Source: an uncultured Lachnospiraceae bacterium (GTDB lineage: Bacteria > Bacillota > Clostridia > Lachnospirales > Lachnospiraceae). From it: a stretch of 50,201 nt of DNA. The stretch spans positions 1 to 50,201 of the forward strand of contig CACZBW010000025.1 of NCBI GenBank assembly GCA_902779575.1, in the 5' to 3' direction. Under the pieces are notes generated by a model. The model did no database searches, had not been told where the DNA came from, and worked only from the letters and a program-made list of their open reading frames with translations. Below are positions 34,244-41,199 of the stretch, in pieces (position 1 is the stretch's first letter; each line of letters opens with the position of its first letter). Made by a program: the position numbers and the translations under genes.

Positions 34244-34990
34244 ATGAGCCAGTACGTTGTTTCCACCAGCGGGAAAATTCTGGACAGCCGTAAAAAAGAA
34301 TATCTGGTTTACGCGCGTTCTCCGGAGGAGGCGGAGTTCCTTGCCCGGAGAACATTCGCGGATGAATATTGTCTGGTGAACCCGCTTGTGGAGACCAGGG
34401 CAAAGAGGCGCATGAGCTGGAAAGTGATTTGCGCTTATCTCACACTGGCAGTCCCGGTTCTTCTTTCCTTTGTAGACTGGAAAATCGGGCACGACACGAT
34501 CTCCATCGCGCCGACTCTGAGGTCGACCCTGCTGGCTGTGATTCTATATTCTGCCTTTGTCATGCGCTTTAAAGGCCTCAGAAGGATCTTTTATGTGATC
34601 GATCTGATTTTTCTGGTTCTGGTTGTTCTGCTGCTCTCTTCCTTTGTCAGCATTCTGATTATCGAGTATGAGATCCCGCTGTTCGGATTCCGGATTGATT
34701 CCTATGTCATCCTGATCGGAGCGGCTGTGCTGGCCTGGCTGGGAGTCAGGCTGATCAGTTCTTTTACATTTCTGACTGTTTTTCTCCTGGCTATGGTAAA
34801 TATGAGCAGGCTCAGCCAGTCTATGGGAAATATCTGGGGACCTGTATATATTCTCTTTTCCTTTATCGGCCTGTGCATGTATCTGGCCTGCGAGCCTGCG
34901 GCACGTGAGACAATCTACGCGGTGCAGCATTTTACCCGGAAGAGAGTCCGCTCCATGCATGAGGATCTTACAGGAGGAGGAAACTGGTGA
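34244..34990 (+). CDS. Multi-pass membrane protein of unknown function
   Basis: 248 residues. A cytoplasmic N-terminal domain of about 60 residues (KEYLVYARSPEEAEFLARRT) precedes six predicted membrane helices between about 65 and 225 (CAYLTLAVPVLLSFV; LLAVILYSAFVM; VIDLIFLVLVVLLLSSFVSI; YVILIGAAVLAWLGV; FLTVFLLAMVNM; PVYILFSFIGLCMYLAC), and a basic tail. I do not recognise a family. The next gene starts 17 bp later and encodes a membrane-anchored partner candidate. Confidence 0.6.
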   Translation: MSQYVVSTSGKILDSRKKEYLVYARSPEEAEFLARRTFADEYCLVNPLVETRAKRRMSWKVICAYLTLAVPVLLSFVDWKIGHDTISIAPTLRSTLLAVILYSAFVMRFKGLRRIFYVIDLIFLVLVVLLLSSFVSILIIEYEIPLFGFRIDSYVILIGAAVLAWLGVRLISSFTFLTVFLLAMVNMSRLSQSMGNIWGPVYILFSFIGLCMYLACEPAARETIYAVQHFTRKRVRSMHEDLTGGGNW

Positions 34991-35006
34991 CAGCGGAGGG
35001 AATGGA

Positions 35007-35462
35007 ATGGGAGTCAGAAGAACCGCGTCAGCTGTGATGCTTGCATTTGCGCTCGGTATGGGAGCAATGTATCTGTATATGAACCAGCCGGGAGGGAGGA
35101 GAACGGCGGTCTCCAATGAGGAGGCACAGTCCGACAAAGAAAACCGTTACCTGACCATCGTCAATAAGACAGGACAGATTATCAATGAGATGCGTGTCAC
35201 GGTCGGCGACGGGTCTGAGATCGAGTCCCTGAAGCAGATCATGCCCGATGAGAAGAGCTATTCCGTGAAGATTCCGGATTCCTTCCGGGAGTACAGCACA
35301 TTCACGGTTACATTTCTGGACCGGTACGGCCTGCTGTACGAGAAGACCGTGGATCAGGCGGCGGAGACCGGACGGACGGAGGTTGTCGTGACGAAGGAAG
35401 ATTACGTGGAGCAGAAGGGCGACTGGAAGAGAAGGGTAGATCAATGGTTCAACGGGGACTGA
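35007..35462 (+). CDS. Small membrane-anchored protein of unknown function
   Basis: 151 residues. An N-terminal membrane segment (TASAVMLAFALGMGAMYLYM) is followed by an extracytoplasmic beta-rich domain (NRYLTIVNKTGQIINEMRVT ... FTVTFLDRYGLLYEKTVD) that resembles small carboxypeptidase-regulatory-like beta sandwiches. Start at 35007 behind GGAGGGA. Its end overlaps the next gene by 19 bp. Confidence 0.6.
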   Translation: MGVRRTASAVMLAFALGMGAMYLYMNQPGGRRTAVSNEEAQSDKENRYLTIVNKTGQIINEMRVTVGDGSEIESLKQIMPDEKSYSVKIPDSFREYSTFTVTFLDRYGLLYEKTVDQAAETGRTEVVVTKEDYVEQKGDWKRRVDQWFNGD

Positions 35463-36147: not shown

Positions 36148-36176
36148 TTGACTTTCGCGGGGGCTTTCGGTAAAGT
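36148..36176 (+). promoter_or_regulatory. Promoter of the small RNA
   Basis: TTGACT (36148-36153), 17-bp spacer, TAAAGT (36171-36176). Start expected near 36180-36183. Confidence 0.7.
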
Positions 36177-36178
36177 AA

Positions 36179-36279
36179 CATCAGTTCGCTCCGCAAACTG
36201 ATGGCTTTAACCCACCCGTACATAAAACCCACCGCGGAGCGGATCATCCCGCTGGCGTTTCGGCGCCAGCGGTTTTTTT
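36179..36279 (+). ncRNA. Putative structured small RNA, about 100 nt
   Basis: No coding frame fits. A 5' hairpin CATCAGTT/AACTGATG (36179-36186 and 36196-36203) exposes the loop CGCTCCGC (36187-36194), which is perfectly complementary over 8 nt to GCGGAGCG at 36234-36241, so a pseudoknot or kissing structure is possible. Between them lie two AACCCACC motifs (36209-36216 and 36227-36233 region) in an otherwise unpaired stretch, reminiscent of C-rich seeds that pair with ribosome sites. The 3' end is a perfect 9-bp terminator stem. AGCGG (36238-36242) can alternatively pair with CCGCT (36249-36253), competing with both other helices. No known family is recognised. Confidence 0.6.
36249..36279 (+). 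terminator. Terminator of the small RNA
   Basis: CCGCTGGCG (36249-36257) pairs perfectly with CGCCAGCGG (36264-36272), followed by TTTTTTT. Confidence 0.9.
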
Positions 36280-36293
36280 AGTTTTTTTTAAAA

Positions 36294-36428
36294 ATGCGCA
36301 TTGATTTTTTTGAGCACTTGTTATATGCTAAGAGCGAAAAAGAAGAGAGAGCGGAAATTGATTCTTTTGCTGATCAGATTCATTTTGGATGTAACTCCGC
36401 GGTGGGAGATATTACATTGACAGAATAA
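36294..36428 (+). CDS. Possible 44-residue small protein or remnant
   Basis: Frame ATG 36294 to TAA 36426-36428, beginning MRIDFFEHLLYAKSEKEERA, followed by a terminator at 36431-36465. Amphipathic and plausible as protein, but there is no ribosome site ahead of the ATG and the T-tract of the small RNA terminator lies immediately upstream. Could be a decayed gene end. Confidence 0.25.
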   Translation: MRIDFFEHLLYAKSEKEERAEIDSFADQIHFGCNSAVGDITLTE

Positions 36429-36430
36429 GA

Positions 36431-36465
36431 GGAAAGGGCGCGGCCGTCAGGCAGCGCCTTTTTCC
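36431..36465 (+). terminator. Rho-independent terminator candidate
   Basis: GGAAAGGGCGC (36431-36441) pairs with GCGCCTTTTTCC (36454-36465) with one bulge; T-run inside the 3' arm. Confidence 0.6.
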
Positions 36466-36591: not shown

Positions 36592-37575
36592 ATGGAAGAA
36601 CAAATCGGTTCCGTTGAGCAATATATGAAAAACTGCAGACTCTGTCCCCGGGAATGCGGGGCAGACCGGACCCGCGGCAGAGCAGGCAGGTGCGGGGTCG
36701 GGAGCGGGATTCTGATTGCGCGGGCCGCCCTCCATTTCTGGGAAGAACCCTGTATTTCAGGAAACGCCGGATCCGGTGCCGTATTCTTTACAGGCTGCAG
36801 CCTGGGCTGTATCTATTGTCAGAATGCCCCGATCTCGGGCGTCGGGCATGAAATGCTGGGGAGAGAAGTTACGATCACGCAGCTAGGAGATATATTTCTC
36901 AGGCTTCAGGATAAGCAGCATGCCTCGAATATTAACCTTGTCACTGCTTCCCACTATATCCCGCAGACTGCGGCCGCACTTCTGTATGCGAAGAGAAAAG
37001 GCCTGAGAATTCCGGTCGTCTACAACAGCAGCGGATATGAAAAGGCAGACTCGCTGCGGATGCTAGAGGGACTGGTGGACGTTTATCTGCCGGATTTCAA
37101 ATACATCGATCCGGAGCTTGCATTTCAATATTCACGCGCACGGGATTATCCGGACCGGGTCCGGGAAGCACTGGCGGAGATGTTCCGGCAGACAGGCCCG
37201 GTACGGTTTTCGGATGGAATGGTGACGCGCGGCGTCATTGTGCGTCATCTGCTTCTTCCCGGCCATGTGAAAGACGCGAAAGCGATCGTGAAGGAACTGC
37301 ATGATACATATGCGGATGCGGTCTGTATCAGCCTGATGAACCAGTATACGCCGATGGAGGCGTTGAGGAATGATCCCCTCCTGGGACGGAAGGTAACTGC
37401 CCGGGAGTACAGGCGGCTGATTGATTACGCGATCGAGACAGGAGTTGAGAATGGATTCATACAGGAAGGCGCAACCGCAGAAGAAAGCTTCATCCCGGCC
37501 TGGAACGGGGAAGGAGTCATTTCCTCAGAAGAAAACGAAGAGCTCTGCAGGGCAGGAAAAAGCGTTCAGAGATAA
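36592..37575 (+). CDS. Radical SAM protein (PflA-like / AmmeMemoRadiSam-type)
   Basis: 327 residues. The radical-SAM cluster motif is CSLGCIYC (Cx3Cx2C) near residues 70-77. An N-terminal cysteine set CRLCPRECGADRTRGRAGRC may bind a second cluster. The downstream LLPGHVKDAKAIVKELHDTY and ISLMNQYTPM are typical of the pyruvate-formate-lyase-activating-enzyme-like family often found as a stand-alone gene. Function unknown. GGAGG precedes the ATG. Its last 125 bp overlap the next gene in another frame. Confidence 0.85.
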   Translation: MEEQIGSVEQYMKNCRLCPRECGADRTRGRAGRCGVGSGILIARAALHFWEEPCISGNAGSGAVFFTGCSLGCIYCQNAPISGVGHEMLGREVTITQLGDIFLRLQDKQHASNINLVTASHYIPQTAAALLYAKRKGLRIPVVYNSSGYEKADSLRMLEGLVDVYLPDFKYIDPELAFQYSRARDYPDRVREALAEMFRQTGPVRFSDGMVTRGVIVRHLLLPGHVKDAKAIVKELHDTYADAVCISLMNQYTPMEALRNDPLLGRKVTAREYRRLIDYAIETGVENGFIQEGATAEESFIPAWNGEGVISSEENEELCRAGKSVQR

Positions 37576-39103
37576 GAAAACAGATACGGAAGTCCGGCAG
37601 CAGAGAGAAAAAAGCATACAGAGGGAACAGGAAGGACCAGAGACCGGAAAAAACCGCAGCTCTCTGTGCCCTGTATGGAAAAAATGCGGCGGATGCGATT
37701 ATCAGGGCCTTTCCTATGAAGAGCAGCTTCAGAGGAAAAACCGCCTGGTCCGGAAACTGCTGGGCGATCTTGTGGAACAGATACACCCGGTGATCGGGAT
37801 GGAGCCTCCGCTGCATTACCGCTGCAAGGTACACGCCGTTTTCTCTCATGACCGGAAGGGGAATCCAGTATCCGGAATCTATGAGAAAGATTCTCACAGG
37901 GTCGTACCGGTCGATTCCTGCATGATCGAAGATTCCAGAAGTGATGAGATTATTGTATCCATCCGGGATATGCTCAGGTCTTTCAGAATCCGGACATATG
38001 ACGAAGACACCGGTTTCGGTCTTCTGCGCCATGTACTGGTGAGGAAAGGCCTCGCGACAAACCAGTATATGGTCGTTCTTGTCACAGTGGATCCGGTTTT
38101 TCCTTCAAAAAACAACTTTGTAAAGGCGCTCAGGCAAAAATATCCGGAGATTTCCACGGTCGTTCTGAATATCAACAGTCAGAATACCAGCATGGTCCTT
38201 GGAGAACGCAATATTGTCCTCCATGGACCCGGTTATATTGAGGATGAACTGTGCGGATGCAGATTCCGGATTTCCCCGAATTCTTTTTATCAGGTCAATC
38301 CCGTACAGACAGAGATTCTTTACAGGAAAGCGATTGAATATGCTCATCTTACCGGGAAGGAAGAAGTACTGGACGCCTACTGCGGGACAGGTACGATCGG
38401 CATCATTGCTTCGTCCGGGGCCAGAAAAGTCACCGGAGTGGAACTGAACCCGGATGCGATTCGGGACGCTGTTGTGAACGCGAAAAGAAACCAGCGGTCA
38501 AATATCCGCTTTATACGGGCAGATGCCACTGAATATATGGAGAACGCAGAAGAGATCAGGCCGGATATAGTGATTATGGATCCTCCCCGGAGCGGCAGTA
38601 CAGAGCGGTTTATCCGTGCCGTGGGAAATCTGCGGCCGGAGCGGGTTGTCTATGTATCCTGCGATCCGCAGACACTGGCCAGGGATCTGAGGTATTTCCG
38701 GAAGGTTCATTACAGGGCAGTTGAGGCACAGCCGGTTGATCTGTTTCCATTTACCGGTCACGTCGAGACGTGCTGCCTACTGGTTGCGGAAAATGGTCAA
38801 AAGGCGCTGCGTGTGCCATATGAGGTTCCGGCTGGCCTGCCGAGTGGGACGACGGTAGAGCCACGGGCGGACTCAGACACGTCGTACAGGCGCATAAAGG
38901 AAATTGTGAAGCAGAATACCGGATTGAGCGTCTCATCGCTGTATATCGCCCAGGTGAAAGAGGCCTATGGCATAAAGGAAAGAGACTGTTATAACCGAGG
39001 AAACGGGTCTGGACGGGTGCCTCAGTGCCCAGAGGCAAAACGGGCGGCAATCGAGGACGCTCTTCGCGAAGTTGGATTGCTGCCGGTTGAAAACGAAAAT
39101 TGA
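37451..39103 (+). CDS. rlmD: 23S rRNA (uracil-C5) methyltransferase, RlmCD/RumA family
   Basis: 550 residues. A Lys/Gln-rich N-terminal tail (no TRAM domain) leads to the Fe-S cysteines in CPVWKKCGGC with a fourth in VDSCMIED. The methyltransferase domain has the SAM loop LDAYCGTGTIGIIAS, IMDPPRSGS, the catalytic Cys in VVYVSCDPQTLARDL and the ending LFPFTGHVETCCLL. A C-terminal extension of about 85 residues (YRRIKEIVKQNTGLSVSSLY ... PQCPEAKRAAIEDALREVGL) is common in Lachnospiraceae homologs. AGGAG lies 7 bp before the ATG at 37451. It overlaps the radical SAM gene by 125 bp. An IS1182-type end begins 26 bp after its stop. Confidence 0.88.
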   Translation: MDSYRKAQPQKKASSRPGTGKESFPQKKTKSSAGQEKAFRDKKTDTEVRQQREKSIQREQEGPETGKNRSSLCPVWKKCGGCDYQGLSYEEQLQRKNRLVRKLLGDLVEQIHPVIGMEPPLHYRCKVHAVFSHDRKGNPVSGIYEKDSHRVVPVDSCMIEDSRSDEIIVSIRDMLRSFRIRTYDEDTGFGLLRHVLVRKGLATNQYMVVLVTVDPVFPSKNNFVKALRQKYPEISTVVLNINSQNTSMVLGERNIVLHGPGYIEDELCGCRFRISPNSFYQVNPVQTEILYRKAIEYAHLTGKEEVLDAYCGTGTIGIIASSGARKVTGVELNPDAIRDAVVNAKRNQRSNIRFIRADATEYMENAEEIRPDIVIMDPPRSGSTERFIRAVGNLRPERVVYVSCDPQTLARDLRYFRKVHYRAVEAQPVDLFPFTGHVETCCLLVAENGQKALRVPYEVPAGLPSGTTVEPRADSDTSYRRIKEIVKQNTGLSVSSLYIAQVKEAYGIKERDCYNRGNGSGRVPQCPEAKRAAIEDALREVGLLPVENEN

Positions 39104-39276: not shown

Positions 39277-40923
39277 TCAGCGGCCCCGTTTATGACATAT
39301 TTCCGGCAGTTCTTCTGACCAGGGAAGCAGGCGTTCCATCGCTTTTGTTTCTTCCTCGGTACTTGCAAACTCTCTGAGTTTTGGGAGTTCTGTCAGCAGG
39401 TATTCCATGTAATGATAGATGTGCAGGTTATTCGCCCTGGCGGTCTCTACCAGGCTGTATATGACCGCGCTGGCGGTGGCTCCTGATATGGTATCAATCG
39501 TCATCCAGTTCCGGCGTCCGACAGTGAATCCGCGGATAGTCCGTTCCGCACAGTTGTTGTGCATCGGAACTTCCCCATCCTGAAGGAAAACCCGCAGGTG
39601 TTCCTCCTGATTGATGGCGTACCGGATTCCGTCGTAAGTGTCCTGACTCATGAGTATGGATTTATCATCTGCGATTTTATGAACCCACGTGAAGAAGGCG
39701 TCAATAAGCGGACGGACTTTGATCTTCCGCTTCCGTTGACGATCTCTGGGAGACATATCCTTCAGTTTTCCTTCTGCATGGAAAATCGCCGCAATCATCT
39801 GCAGGGCGTCTTCCGCGATCTGGCCCTGTGCCGGATGCTTACTGCCGTCTGCAGCCTTCACTGCATCGGTAAACTTCCGTCTCAGGTGTGACCAGCACTC
39901 TGCGATGGTGATCCCTTCGGCTTTCCGGCTCAGGGTTTTGTATCCCGGAAAACCGTCACAGACCAGGTATCCGTTAAATCCTTCCAGGAAGTTCAATGGA
40001 TGTTCATGATTCCTGGTCTTCTGGTACTCGTAGAGCACAATCGGCCGGTCCCCGTAATACTCTCCGGTACGATAGATCCACATGTAGCTTTTGCATCCGG
40101 CTTTGCGGCCGTCCTTTACCACTTCAACAGTGGTTTCGTCAGCCTGAAGCACATGATATTCCCTGATCAGTGCATGCAGATAATTATAGAACCGTGACAG
40201 ATACCGTTCCGCGCATTTGATCGTCCAGGATGCCATGTTCTGTTCGGAAATACAGACGCCGTTCTGCCGGAAATCCTTCTCAATCCGCCGGTAGGGCTGG
40301 GCGTTGCCATATTTGGCATTGATAATGGCTGCTTCCAGAGACGGGGTGACAATGTTGCCGCGCAGAAGATAGGCAGGCGCCTTCCCTTTGACAAATTTTG
40401 CCTCACCGTTCCTGCTGCGATAGACTGCTATGTGTGTTTCCTCCACCCGCCAGCCGGCAGGGATATAGGCAAGCCTCTGCATGACTTCGTCCGGCATGCG
40501 GCGGCAGTTGTCAGGGGATCCAAACACCCGGATCAGTTCTTCTTCCGGAACATCGATGGTCGGAAGAACATAAACATCGAACTGGCCAAGATCCTGCTCC
40601 TTCTTTCCTTTCGGACGGGGCGTGCGCTTTTTTACTGCAGTTTCTACTGTGGGCTCTTCCGGGTCGGGATCAGTATCATGGATGGCTTCCGCTTCGTTGA
40701 AGTAGATCTCACCATCTTCGTCAAAGCAGCCCTGGCCGCTTATCTGGCTGAGCTTCTCCGTGTGACGGCCAAAACGGTTGCTGTTTGCAAGCGCGATCTG
40801 GCCGGTGGGATAGTCCAGCCGGGAATTGAGTGTATTCAGCTGTTCCTGCATGGAAAGCGTCATGGAAACCAGTGTTTCCTTTGACAGTTCATTCAATTGT
40901 TCTGCAGTCAGATTTCCACTCAT
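39277..40923 (-). CDS. tnpC: IS66 family transposase TnpC
   Basis: 549 residues from the ATG at 40923 (MSGNLTAEQLNELS). N-terminal coiled-coil leucine-rich segment, a zinc-finger-like DUF region, then the DDE catalytic domain with LQADETTVEVVKDGRKAG, the YLVCDGFPGYKTL second Asp and the C-terminal Glu in NNCAERTIRGFTVGRRNW, ending with the IS66 C-terminal signature (YSLVETARANNLHIYHYMEY). An upstream in-frame extension to 41061 is not expected in the family. Appears intact. Confidence 0.92.
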   Translation of the reverse strand: MSGNLTAEQLNELSKETLVSMTLSMQEQLNTLNSRLDYPTGQIALANSNRFGRHTEKLSQISGQGCFDEDGEIYFNEAEAIHDTDPDPEEPTVETAVKKRTPRPKGKKEQDLGQFDVYVLPTIDVPEEELIRVFGSPDNCRRMPDEVMQRLAYIPAGWRVEETHIAVYRSRNGEAKFVKGKAPAYLLRGNIVTPSLEAAIINAKYGNAQPYRRIEKDFRQNGVCISEQNMASWTIKCAERYLSRFYNYLHALIREYHVLQADETTVEVVKDGRKAGCKSYMWIYRTGEYYGDRPIVLYEYQKTRNHEHPLNFLEGFNGYLVCDGFPGYKTLSRKAEGITIAECWSHLRRKFTDAVKAADGSKHPAQGQIAEDALQMIAAIFHAEGKLKDMSPRDRQRKRKIKVRPLIDAFFTWVHKIADDKSILMSQDTYDGIRYAINQEEHLRVFLQDGEVPMHNNCAERTIRGFTVGRRNWMTIDTISGATASAVIYSLVETARANNLHIYHYMEYLLTELPKLREFASTEEETKAMERLLPWSEELPEICHKRGR

Positions 40924-41199
40924 GTCCAACCCCCGCGTTATTATTGACTTTATTATACCAAAAAGCGCGGAAACACACCATTTTCCGGTATCTGCGCGTT
41001 CGTCAGAATGCCTGTGGATATAAGGAAACATGACGCTGATATATGGCTCGGGGGTATTCACTTTTCAAAGTGCAGTCATTTCCCTTAATAAGGTCTCTGC
41101 AGGGCAGACAGGCCGGTTCAGGGAAGAAAATATATGTTGAAGAACGGCGCTTTCAGGTGATAAAAACAGCAAAATATTTTCTCTGTTTTTCACAAACAA

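Follow-up and report, generated by a model that had tools for sequence, protein, structure and literature searches.

Two predicted small RNAs, one C-rich and the other its complementary neighbour, conserved together in a Lachnospiraceae genus

A predicted C-rich small RNA (RNA-A) and a second predicted RNA on the same strand (RNA-B) lie in the gap between the YgjP and radical SAM genes in the window, the 50,201-nt stretch of DNA analysed here, which comes from an uncultured Lachnospiraceae bacterium of the gut, probably the rumen. By model score, RNA-A and RNA-B are found in an identical set of 12 of the 19 genomes of the genus. The best conserved pairing partner found for RNA-A is its neighbour, and since the best-conserved part of RNA-B complements RNA-A, the two RNAs probably bind and control each other. 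We tentatively favour the view that RNA-B, made from the leader of a radical SAM-rlmD transcript, is a sponge or antagonist of RNA-A, and we put the chance that this is right slightly short of even.

RNA-A, a predicted and conserved C-rich RNA

The features of RNA-A in the window are as follows.

36148..36176, + strand: promoter, with the -35 element TTGACT at 36148-36153, a 17-nt spacer and the -10 element TAAAGT at 36171-36176 (9/12 consensus matches)
about 36183..36279, + strand: RNA-A, predicted transcript of ~97 nt (covariance model; start placed from the position of the -10 element)
36184..36193, + strand: closing stem, 5′ arm, pairing with 36235-36244 (10/10 pairs, 12/12 genomes)
36235..36244, + strand: closing stem, 3′ arm, pairing with 36184-36193
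36209..36216, + strand: first AACCCACC, in the loop (CCCACC invariant in 12/12 genomes)
36228..36239, + strand: CCCACCGCGGAG, made up of the second C-rich motif and the start of the 3′ stem arm; complements RNA-B 36395-36406
36249..36279, + strand: intrinsic terminator and T run (10-bp stem 36249-36272, then seven T)

A sequence-only reading of this DNA had described the near-consensus promoter, the terminator with seven Ts and the two C-rich motifs, and all were confirmed, the second AACCCACC lying at 36226-36233 and CCCACC being the conserved part. A generic promoter and terminator scan of the window also lists the RNA-A promoter and terminator. TTGAC-17-TAnnnT was present upstream of RNA-A in 12/12 genomes, with the foot of the stem 6-8 nt past the -10 element. 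Folding of 102 nt gave -38.6 kcal/mol (z -4.27), and 0/200 shuffles were equally low. With its promoter, closing stem, C-rich loop and terminator, RNA-A looks like a real C-rich sRNA. The C-rich trans-acting sRNAs of Firmicutes are stand-alone, terminated RNAs whose C-rich motifs are single-stranded, and RNA-A is predicted to be built in this way. No pairing partner was identified for its first AACCCACC.

When 98 genomes were searched at the nucleotide level, 48 contained matches (E up to 0.1), the strong ones belonging to the genus. The covariance model built from 12 copies scored 95-113 bits in 12/19 genus genomes, all other matches there being at most 23.8 bits, and among 397 genomes of the family it returned, at E up to 0.01, the window's own genome (G000), G018 and one 26.9-bit match to the terminator only. 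The alignment of the 12 genomes showed that the loop GATGGCTTTAACCCACCCGTACATAAAACCCACC is nearly invariant and that the closing stem keeps all of its 10 pairs in every genome, G-U counted. The compensatory changes that the sequence-only reading had asked for were found in the terminator, where four stem pairs have changes on both sides; in the octamer and closing stem the changes are one-sided only. The covariation score was 0.133; shuffles gave 0.092, and sliding the structure gave no more than 0.048. Because the alignments of both RNAs used for the pair counts were fitted to the models, these counts favour the modelled structures. A coding frame in RNA-A (ATGGCTTTAACC...) was rejected, since one-base changes in loop length break it in 4/12 genomes.

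The own genome contains no further copies of RNA-A except short weak matches. A search of genome contigs with the double-motif pattern gave 27 stretches, 11 of which are contigs of the other 11 pair genomes; we estimate that the remaining 16, scattered over other taxa, are at about chance level. The matching records point to rumen and other Lachnospiraceae/Clostridia MAGs. Elsewhere in the genus a double CCCACC occurs at six extra sites, all without the RNA-A loop; two of these (G011 C187 and G017 C183) lie outside long open frames. Viral contigs gave one match, in an unrelated context, and none for RNA-B. The claim that RNA-A belongs to no known family stood, Rfam 15 scans of the window and of the loci of 12 relatives giving no match at gathering score. 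The best weak match, to the alphaproteobacterial sRNA ar35 (25.9 bits, E 0.0069; cut-off 45 bits), lies over RNA-B, and the opposite strand of that stretch matches too, at 23 bits. RNA-A may resemble the E. coli rRNA region that RlmD modifies, but none of the readings below draws on this.

The sequence-only reading had further proposed that the loop of a 5′ hairpin is paired to the tail. The complementarity itself is real: ATCAGTT (36180-36186) can face AACTGAT (36196-36202) as the hairpin arms, and the octamer CGCTCCGC (36187-36194) is complementary to GCGGAGCG (36234-36241). In the minimum-energy fold, however, the octamer and its flank pair with the 'tail' as the ordinary closing stem, and the 5′ hairpin is absent. 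As the folding program cannot display pseudoknots, the relatives decide between closing stem and loop-to-tail contact. They keep the octamer pairing only within the longer closing stem, and the 5′ hairpin, with 7/7 pairs in the window, has 2-6/7 in the other 11 genomes. With the hairpin not conserved, the octamer complementarity is no loop-to-tail contact, and the proposed pseudoknot or two-state switch is unsupported. The third pairing, of AGCGG and CCGCT, shows no special conservation either, since 10/12 genomes read CCGCC and lose one of the five pairs. What conservation, structure counts, promoters and the Rfam scans support in the earlier reading is an sRNA of no known family with single-stranded C-rich motifs.

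Search for targets of RNA-A

The own genome has 20 GGTGGGTT sites outside RNA-A, nearly all within open frames, and none of the 20 was recognised at a ribosome-binding site. Two closely precede an ATG; in one case no long frame goes with it, and in the other the site falls within the last part of a 476-aa frame. A target ranking from one genome was discarded, its top match falling within the end of a frame of 476 aa, where a start is probably mis-set. The site G000:C9:109708-109715 (L135) is the only one in the own genome without an open frame of at least 50 aa over it; an ATG follows 4 nt later, with no long frame.

The target sample covered 850 kb of the own genome, made up of the window and 800 kb in other stretches. 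Of the 687 genes predicted in it, 532 have a recognisable ribosome-binding site at the start. At these 532 starts GGTGGG occurred 4 times, versus 1.9 expected, and five other G5T hexamers 2-5 times versus 1.1-1.9. RNA-A duplexes of -20 kcal/mol or lower numbered 161, versus 94-173 for 12 shuffled loops, 3/12 of which reached 161. The 532 gene starts sampled in this one genome show no trace of a ribosome-binding-site regulon. The lack of enrichment weakens the earlier suggestion that RNA-A pairs with ribosome-binding sites, though a conventional regulon may still exist.

RNA-B, a second predicted RNA downstream of RNA-A

RNA-B, which is absent from the sequence-only reading, begins ~57 nt past the T run of RNA-A.

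36301..36329, + strand: promoter-like site of RNA-B (TTGATT, 17 nt, TATGCT; 8/12 consensus matches)
about 36336..36465, + strand: RNA-B, predicted transcript of ~130 nt (covariance model; inferred ends)
36388..36418, + strand: hairpin with GCGGUG in the loop (CUCC-GCGGUG-GGAG)
36395..36406, + strand: core CTCCGCGGTGGG, exact complement of RNA-A CCCACCGCGGAG
36432..36463, + strand: terminator-like hairpin (fold and alignment)

The generic scan of the window, with its cut-offs, lists neither the promoter nor the terminator of RNA-B. The RNA-B model scored 59-93 bits in 12/19 genus genomes and at most 33.1 bits for all else. A 13th copy, in G017 and before a radical SAM gene, scored 26.8 bits by the model; it carries CTCCGTGGTGGG, with a different outer stem and a different terminator. 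TTGnnn-17-TAnnnT (7-8/12 consensus matches) precedes RNA-B in 13/13 copies, the -10 element sitting ~50 nt closer to the core in 10/13. At nominal spacing, transcription would start no more than about 2 nt from the first stem's foot for 12/12 copies of RNA-A and 10/13 of RNA-B.

The longest invariant run of RNA-B, CTCCGCGGTGGGAGA (15 columns across 10 aligned copies), is the RNA-A complement plus its edge. In the structure counts 99.2% of cells were paired, and five pairs had double changes; covariation was 0.240, compared with 0.143 for shuffles and no more than 0.095 on sliding. Compensatory changes were seen in the RNA-B hairpin and in the terminators of both RNAs. Outside the genus, 17/397 genomes gave matches of 31-43 bits; the best loci of 8 of these 17 were examined, and these matches were terminator-driven, all without the GGTGGG loop. 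A leader peptide in RNA-B was rejected, as the start codon is not kept across copies.

Genomic context of the pair

The proposed check in relatives showed that the RNA is conserved, in 12/19 genus genomes, but that its upstream neighbour is not: YgjP lies upstream of RNA-A in two genomes, and three other arrangements are found in the remaining ten. Two + strand frames upstream of YgjP in the window, 34244-34990 and 34905-35462, have no Pfam match and have relatives in G001; the second has no NCBIfam match either. Downstream, RNA-B precedes radical SAM or rlmD in 12/13 copies (11/12 pair genomes plus G017).

36592..37575, + strand: radical SAM protein gene, downstream of RNA-B (PF04055, 35.8 bits, cut-off 29.5)
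37421..39103, + strand: rlmD, 23S rRNA uracil-1939 methyltransferase, longest frame (TIGR00479, 348.5 bits, cut-off 183.55)

No NCBIfam model scored above its own cut-off for the radical SAM protein. The longest rlmD frame overlaps the preceding gene, so the real start is probably further in. An IS66 family transposase gene lies just past rlmD (39277-41061, - strand; NF033517, 328.6 bits, cut-off 180). The radical SAM frame of G015 (L009) has tandem GNQEQASFQ-like repeats that are missing from the window copy, and in G014 (L004) a long inverted repeat, GGGGACGGTTCTCCGTTTCAC ... GTGAAACGGAGAACCGTCCCC, which looks like a repetitive element, lies between RNA-B and the radical SAM gene.

An apparent insertion element follows RNA-B in G005, where radical SAM-rlmD is found at the end of a different contig. 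In G011 and G018 other gene sets separate RNA-A from RNA-B, the cores being 6.2 and 9.4 kb apart, and both RNAs are kept. The genes in these gaps (L147, L148) read as oligopeptide ABC transport in the former and as sugar ABC transport, a two-component system and an epimerase in the latter.

RNA-B may instead be a target of RNA-A, which would bind the leader and alter its processing, stability or read-through into radical SAM-rlmD. We consider this reading unlikely but serious. The position of RNA-B before radical SAM or rlmD favours it, as does the finding that no promoter-like site of at least 8/12 lies between the RNA-B terminator and the N-terminal motif of the gene in 12/12 loci (shortest gap 34 nt, in G011). 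Among pair-less controls, 3/5 have a promoter-like site in the 180 nt before the motif and 2/5 have none. The reading also agrees with the failure to see a broad set of other RNA-A targets and with the precedent of UpsM and StsR, as described in the excerpts of the reports cited below. However, RNA-B with the 3′ arm of its terminator blocked formed no competing helix of more than 3 bp in 13/13 copies, and a simple antiterminator is therefore not evident. The detachment of RNA-B from the operon in G005 and the conservation of the RNA-A loop well past what RNA-B would need also argue against a mere target.

Complementarity and co-occurrence of RNA-A and RNA-B

Across the 19 genomes the pattern CTCCGYGGTGGG occurs 29 times: in the complements of the 12 RNA-A copies, in the 12 RNA-B copies, in the RNA-B of G017 and at four other sites. 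The reversed pattern is absent. The complementarity extends over 12 perfect bases in G000 and G001; in the other ten pair genomes it is interrupted in mid-duplex by a mismatch, A in RNA-A against C in RNA-B, and amounts to 6+5 bases (seven genomes) or 6+6 (three genomes). When RNA-B was shuffled preserving dinucleotides, 12 perfect bases arose in 0/3000 (G000) and 3/3000 (G001) shuffles, and the one-mismatch forms of the other ten genomes in 1-22/3000. Predicted duplex energies were -24.6 to -29.0 kcal/mol, equalled by 1-25/500 shuffles. The net co-folding gain was 0 to -3.8 kcal/mol; it was zero in G014 and G018, where the best co-fold leaves the two RNAs apart. By these calculations the pairing is specific, yet energetically not compelling in every genome.

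The central A·C mismatch in 10/12 genomes and the small co-folding gain leave some room for separate roles, each RNA acting on mRNAs or a protein and their complementarity being incidental or a relic. G017, with an RNA-B and no RNA-A found in its 91%-complete assembly, fits such roles. Nevertheless, we hold them to be distinctly improbable, because both RNAs occur in the same 12/19 genomes, the 12-mer is rare elsewhere in the 19 genomes and shuffles seldom match it. The co-occurrence is weaker evidence than it appears, as the RNAs are adjacent and one deletion can remove both.

Single-gene trees were made for radical SAM (14/19 genomes) and RlmD (13/19). Both place the pair-less G003, G004 and G006 beside G000 and G001, with supports (85/88 and 91/92) below the mark; the radical SAM tree places the pair-less G007 and G010 beside G005, G011 and G018 (95/94), a region that the RlmD tree leaves unresolved. 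This interspersion of pair-less genomes makes more than one loss or gain of the pair probable.

That the conserved features are only DNA sites or terminators, with no functional RNA, is very unlikely: although both RNAs are predictions from sequence, the promoter-stem-loop-terminator layout, the covariation and the near-invariant loop speak for RNAs, and the features are kept though the flanking proteins are only ~45-67% identical to those of the window (G001 excepted). A switch, in which the 5′ hairpin loop pairs with the tail and the third pairing competes with the terminator, is scarcely credible, all three pairings being drawable in the window but the hairpin and the third pairing lacking pairs in relatives, and the hairpin also being absent from the minimum-energy fold, as described above.

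A model for the pair

Returning to RNA-B as a sponge of RNA-A, we infer transcription, an in-cell duplex, a direction of regulation and further RNA-A targets from computed conservation, structure, promoter-like sites, complementarity and co-occurrence. RNA-A would be transcribed independently, its 10-bp closing stem presenting the near-invariant loop with two CCCACC, followed by the intrinsic terminator. RNA-B would be a short RNA transcribed in the same direction from a separate promoter immediately downstream, with a hairpin displaying GCGGUG in its loop. First contact would be made between CACC of RNA-A and GGUG in the RNA-B loop, after which the CUCC/GGAG helices of the two RNAs would swap partners, forming 12 bp of duplex or, where a mismatch intervenes, 6+5 or 6+6 bp on its two sides. 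RNA-B would thereby antagonise RNA-A. Since it would also be the 5′ leader, ended by a terminator, that precedes radical SAM-rlmD in the transcript, the activity of the leader promoter would set the amount of free RNA-A.

Complementarity to the seed of an sRNA, as expected of a sponge, was found in RNA-B, with the A·C mismatch in 10/12 genomes. The invariant run of RNA-B is the RNA-A complement, and the RNA-A loop is conserved beyond the need of RNA-B; this asymmetry suggests that RNA-B exists for RNA-A and that RNA-A does more, which is why a sponge or antagonist is favoured. The detachment in G005 and the zero co-folding gains lower this reading slightly. It requires other targets of RNA-A, and none was found in the own genome as sampled. 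A broader reading, which we regard as unlikely, is a two-RNA cassette of an sRNA and the leader of an rRNA-methyltransferase operon that control each other by loop contact and helix exchange, couple the operon to a regulon and are lost or gained as a unit in one genus.

If the model is true, the locus is a compact sRNA with its partner, with a natural series of one-base mismatches and natural absence in related species, and would let the joint origin and loss of an sRNA and its antagonist be tested directly.

Comparison with known systems

In a non-exhaustive literature search, the excerpts of which form the basis of this comparison, no sRNA encoded side by side with a complementary partner was described, and no study of a base-pairing sRNA of Lachnospiraceae or the rumen was found. 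A neighbouring arrangement of qrrX and qrr4 was not borne out by the literature excerpts. As far as these go, IsrR (PMC9410917) has C-rich single-stranded loop motifs and an intrinsic terminator like RNA-A, and RsaE/RoxS and LhrC are likewise C-rich sRNAs of Firmicutes with C-rich motifs in loops; these sRNAs act on Shine-Dalgarno regions, whereas RNA-A shows no such enrichment in the sample and differs in sequence. SpoX and SpoY of Clostridioides difficile provide a clostridial sRNA-sRNA contact, for which the authors call a sponge role possible; unlike RNA-A and RNA-B as modelled, both act on spo0A mRNA, and the excerpted text describes no neighbouring complementary pair (PMC10267692).

UpsM of Rhodobacter sphaeroides is an sRNA made by termination within a 5′ leader with leaky read-through and is bound by StsR, which acts on UpsM and the dcw leader (PMC5089854, PMC8307010). 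RNA-B would resemble it, so far as the excerpts describe UpsM, as a candidate leader-terminated sRNA with a second sRNA as partner. The StsR/UpsM system is proteobacterial and Hfq/RNase E based, and in the excerpts of these reports the two genes are not described as neighbours, whereas RNA-A and RNA-B adjoin. When folded, the UpsM leader shows a possible alternative structure, and RNA-B shows none.

The closest Gram-positive precedent is, by analogy, RosA of Bacillus subtilis, a proven G-rich sponge of the C-rich sRNAs RoxS and FsrA and, according to its description in 2021, the first RNA sponge to be confirmed for any Gram-positive bacterium (PMC8216469, as excerpted). Rfam scans gave no sequence family common to RosA and RNA-B. 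RosA, with ~229 nt and three G-rich regions, acts on two or more sRNAs (same excerpts), whereas RNA-B has one G-rich site, adjoins the RNA that it complements and is probably a leader as well. Both are stand-alone G-rich RNAs paired with a C-rich Gram-positive sRNA, the sponge action that is proposed for RNA-B having been proven for RosA (PMC8216469, as excerpted).
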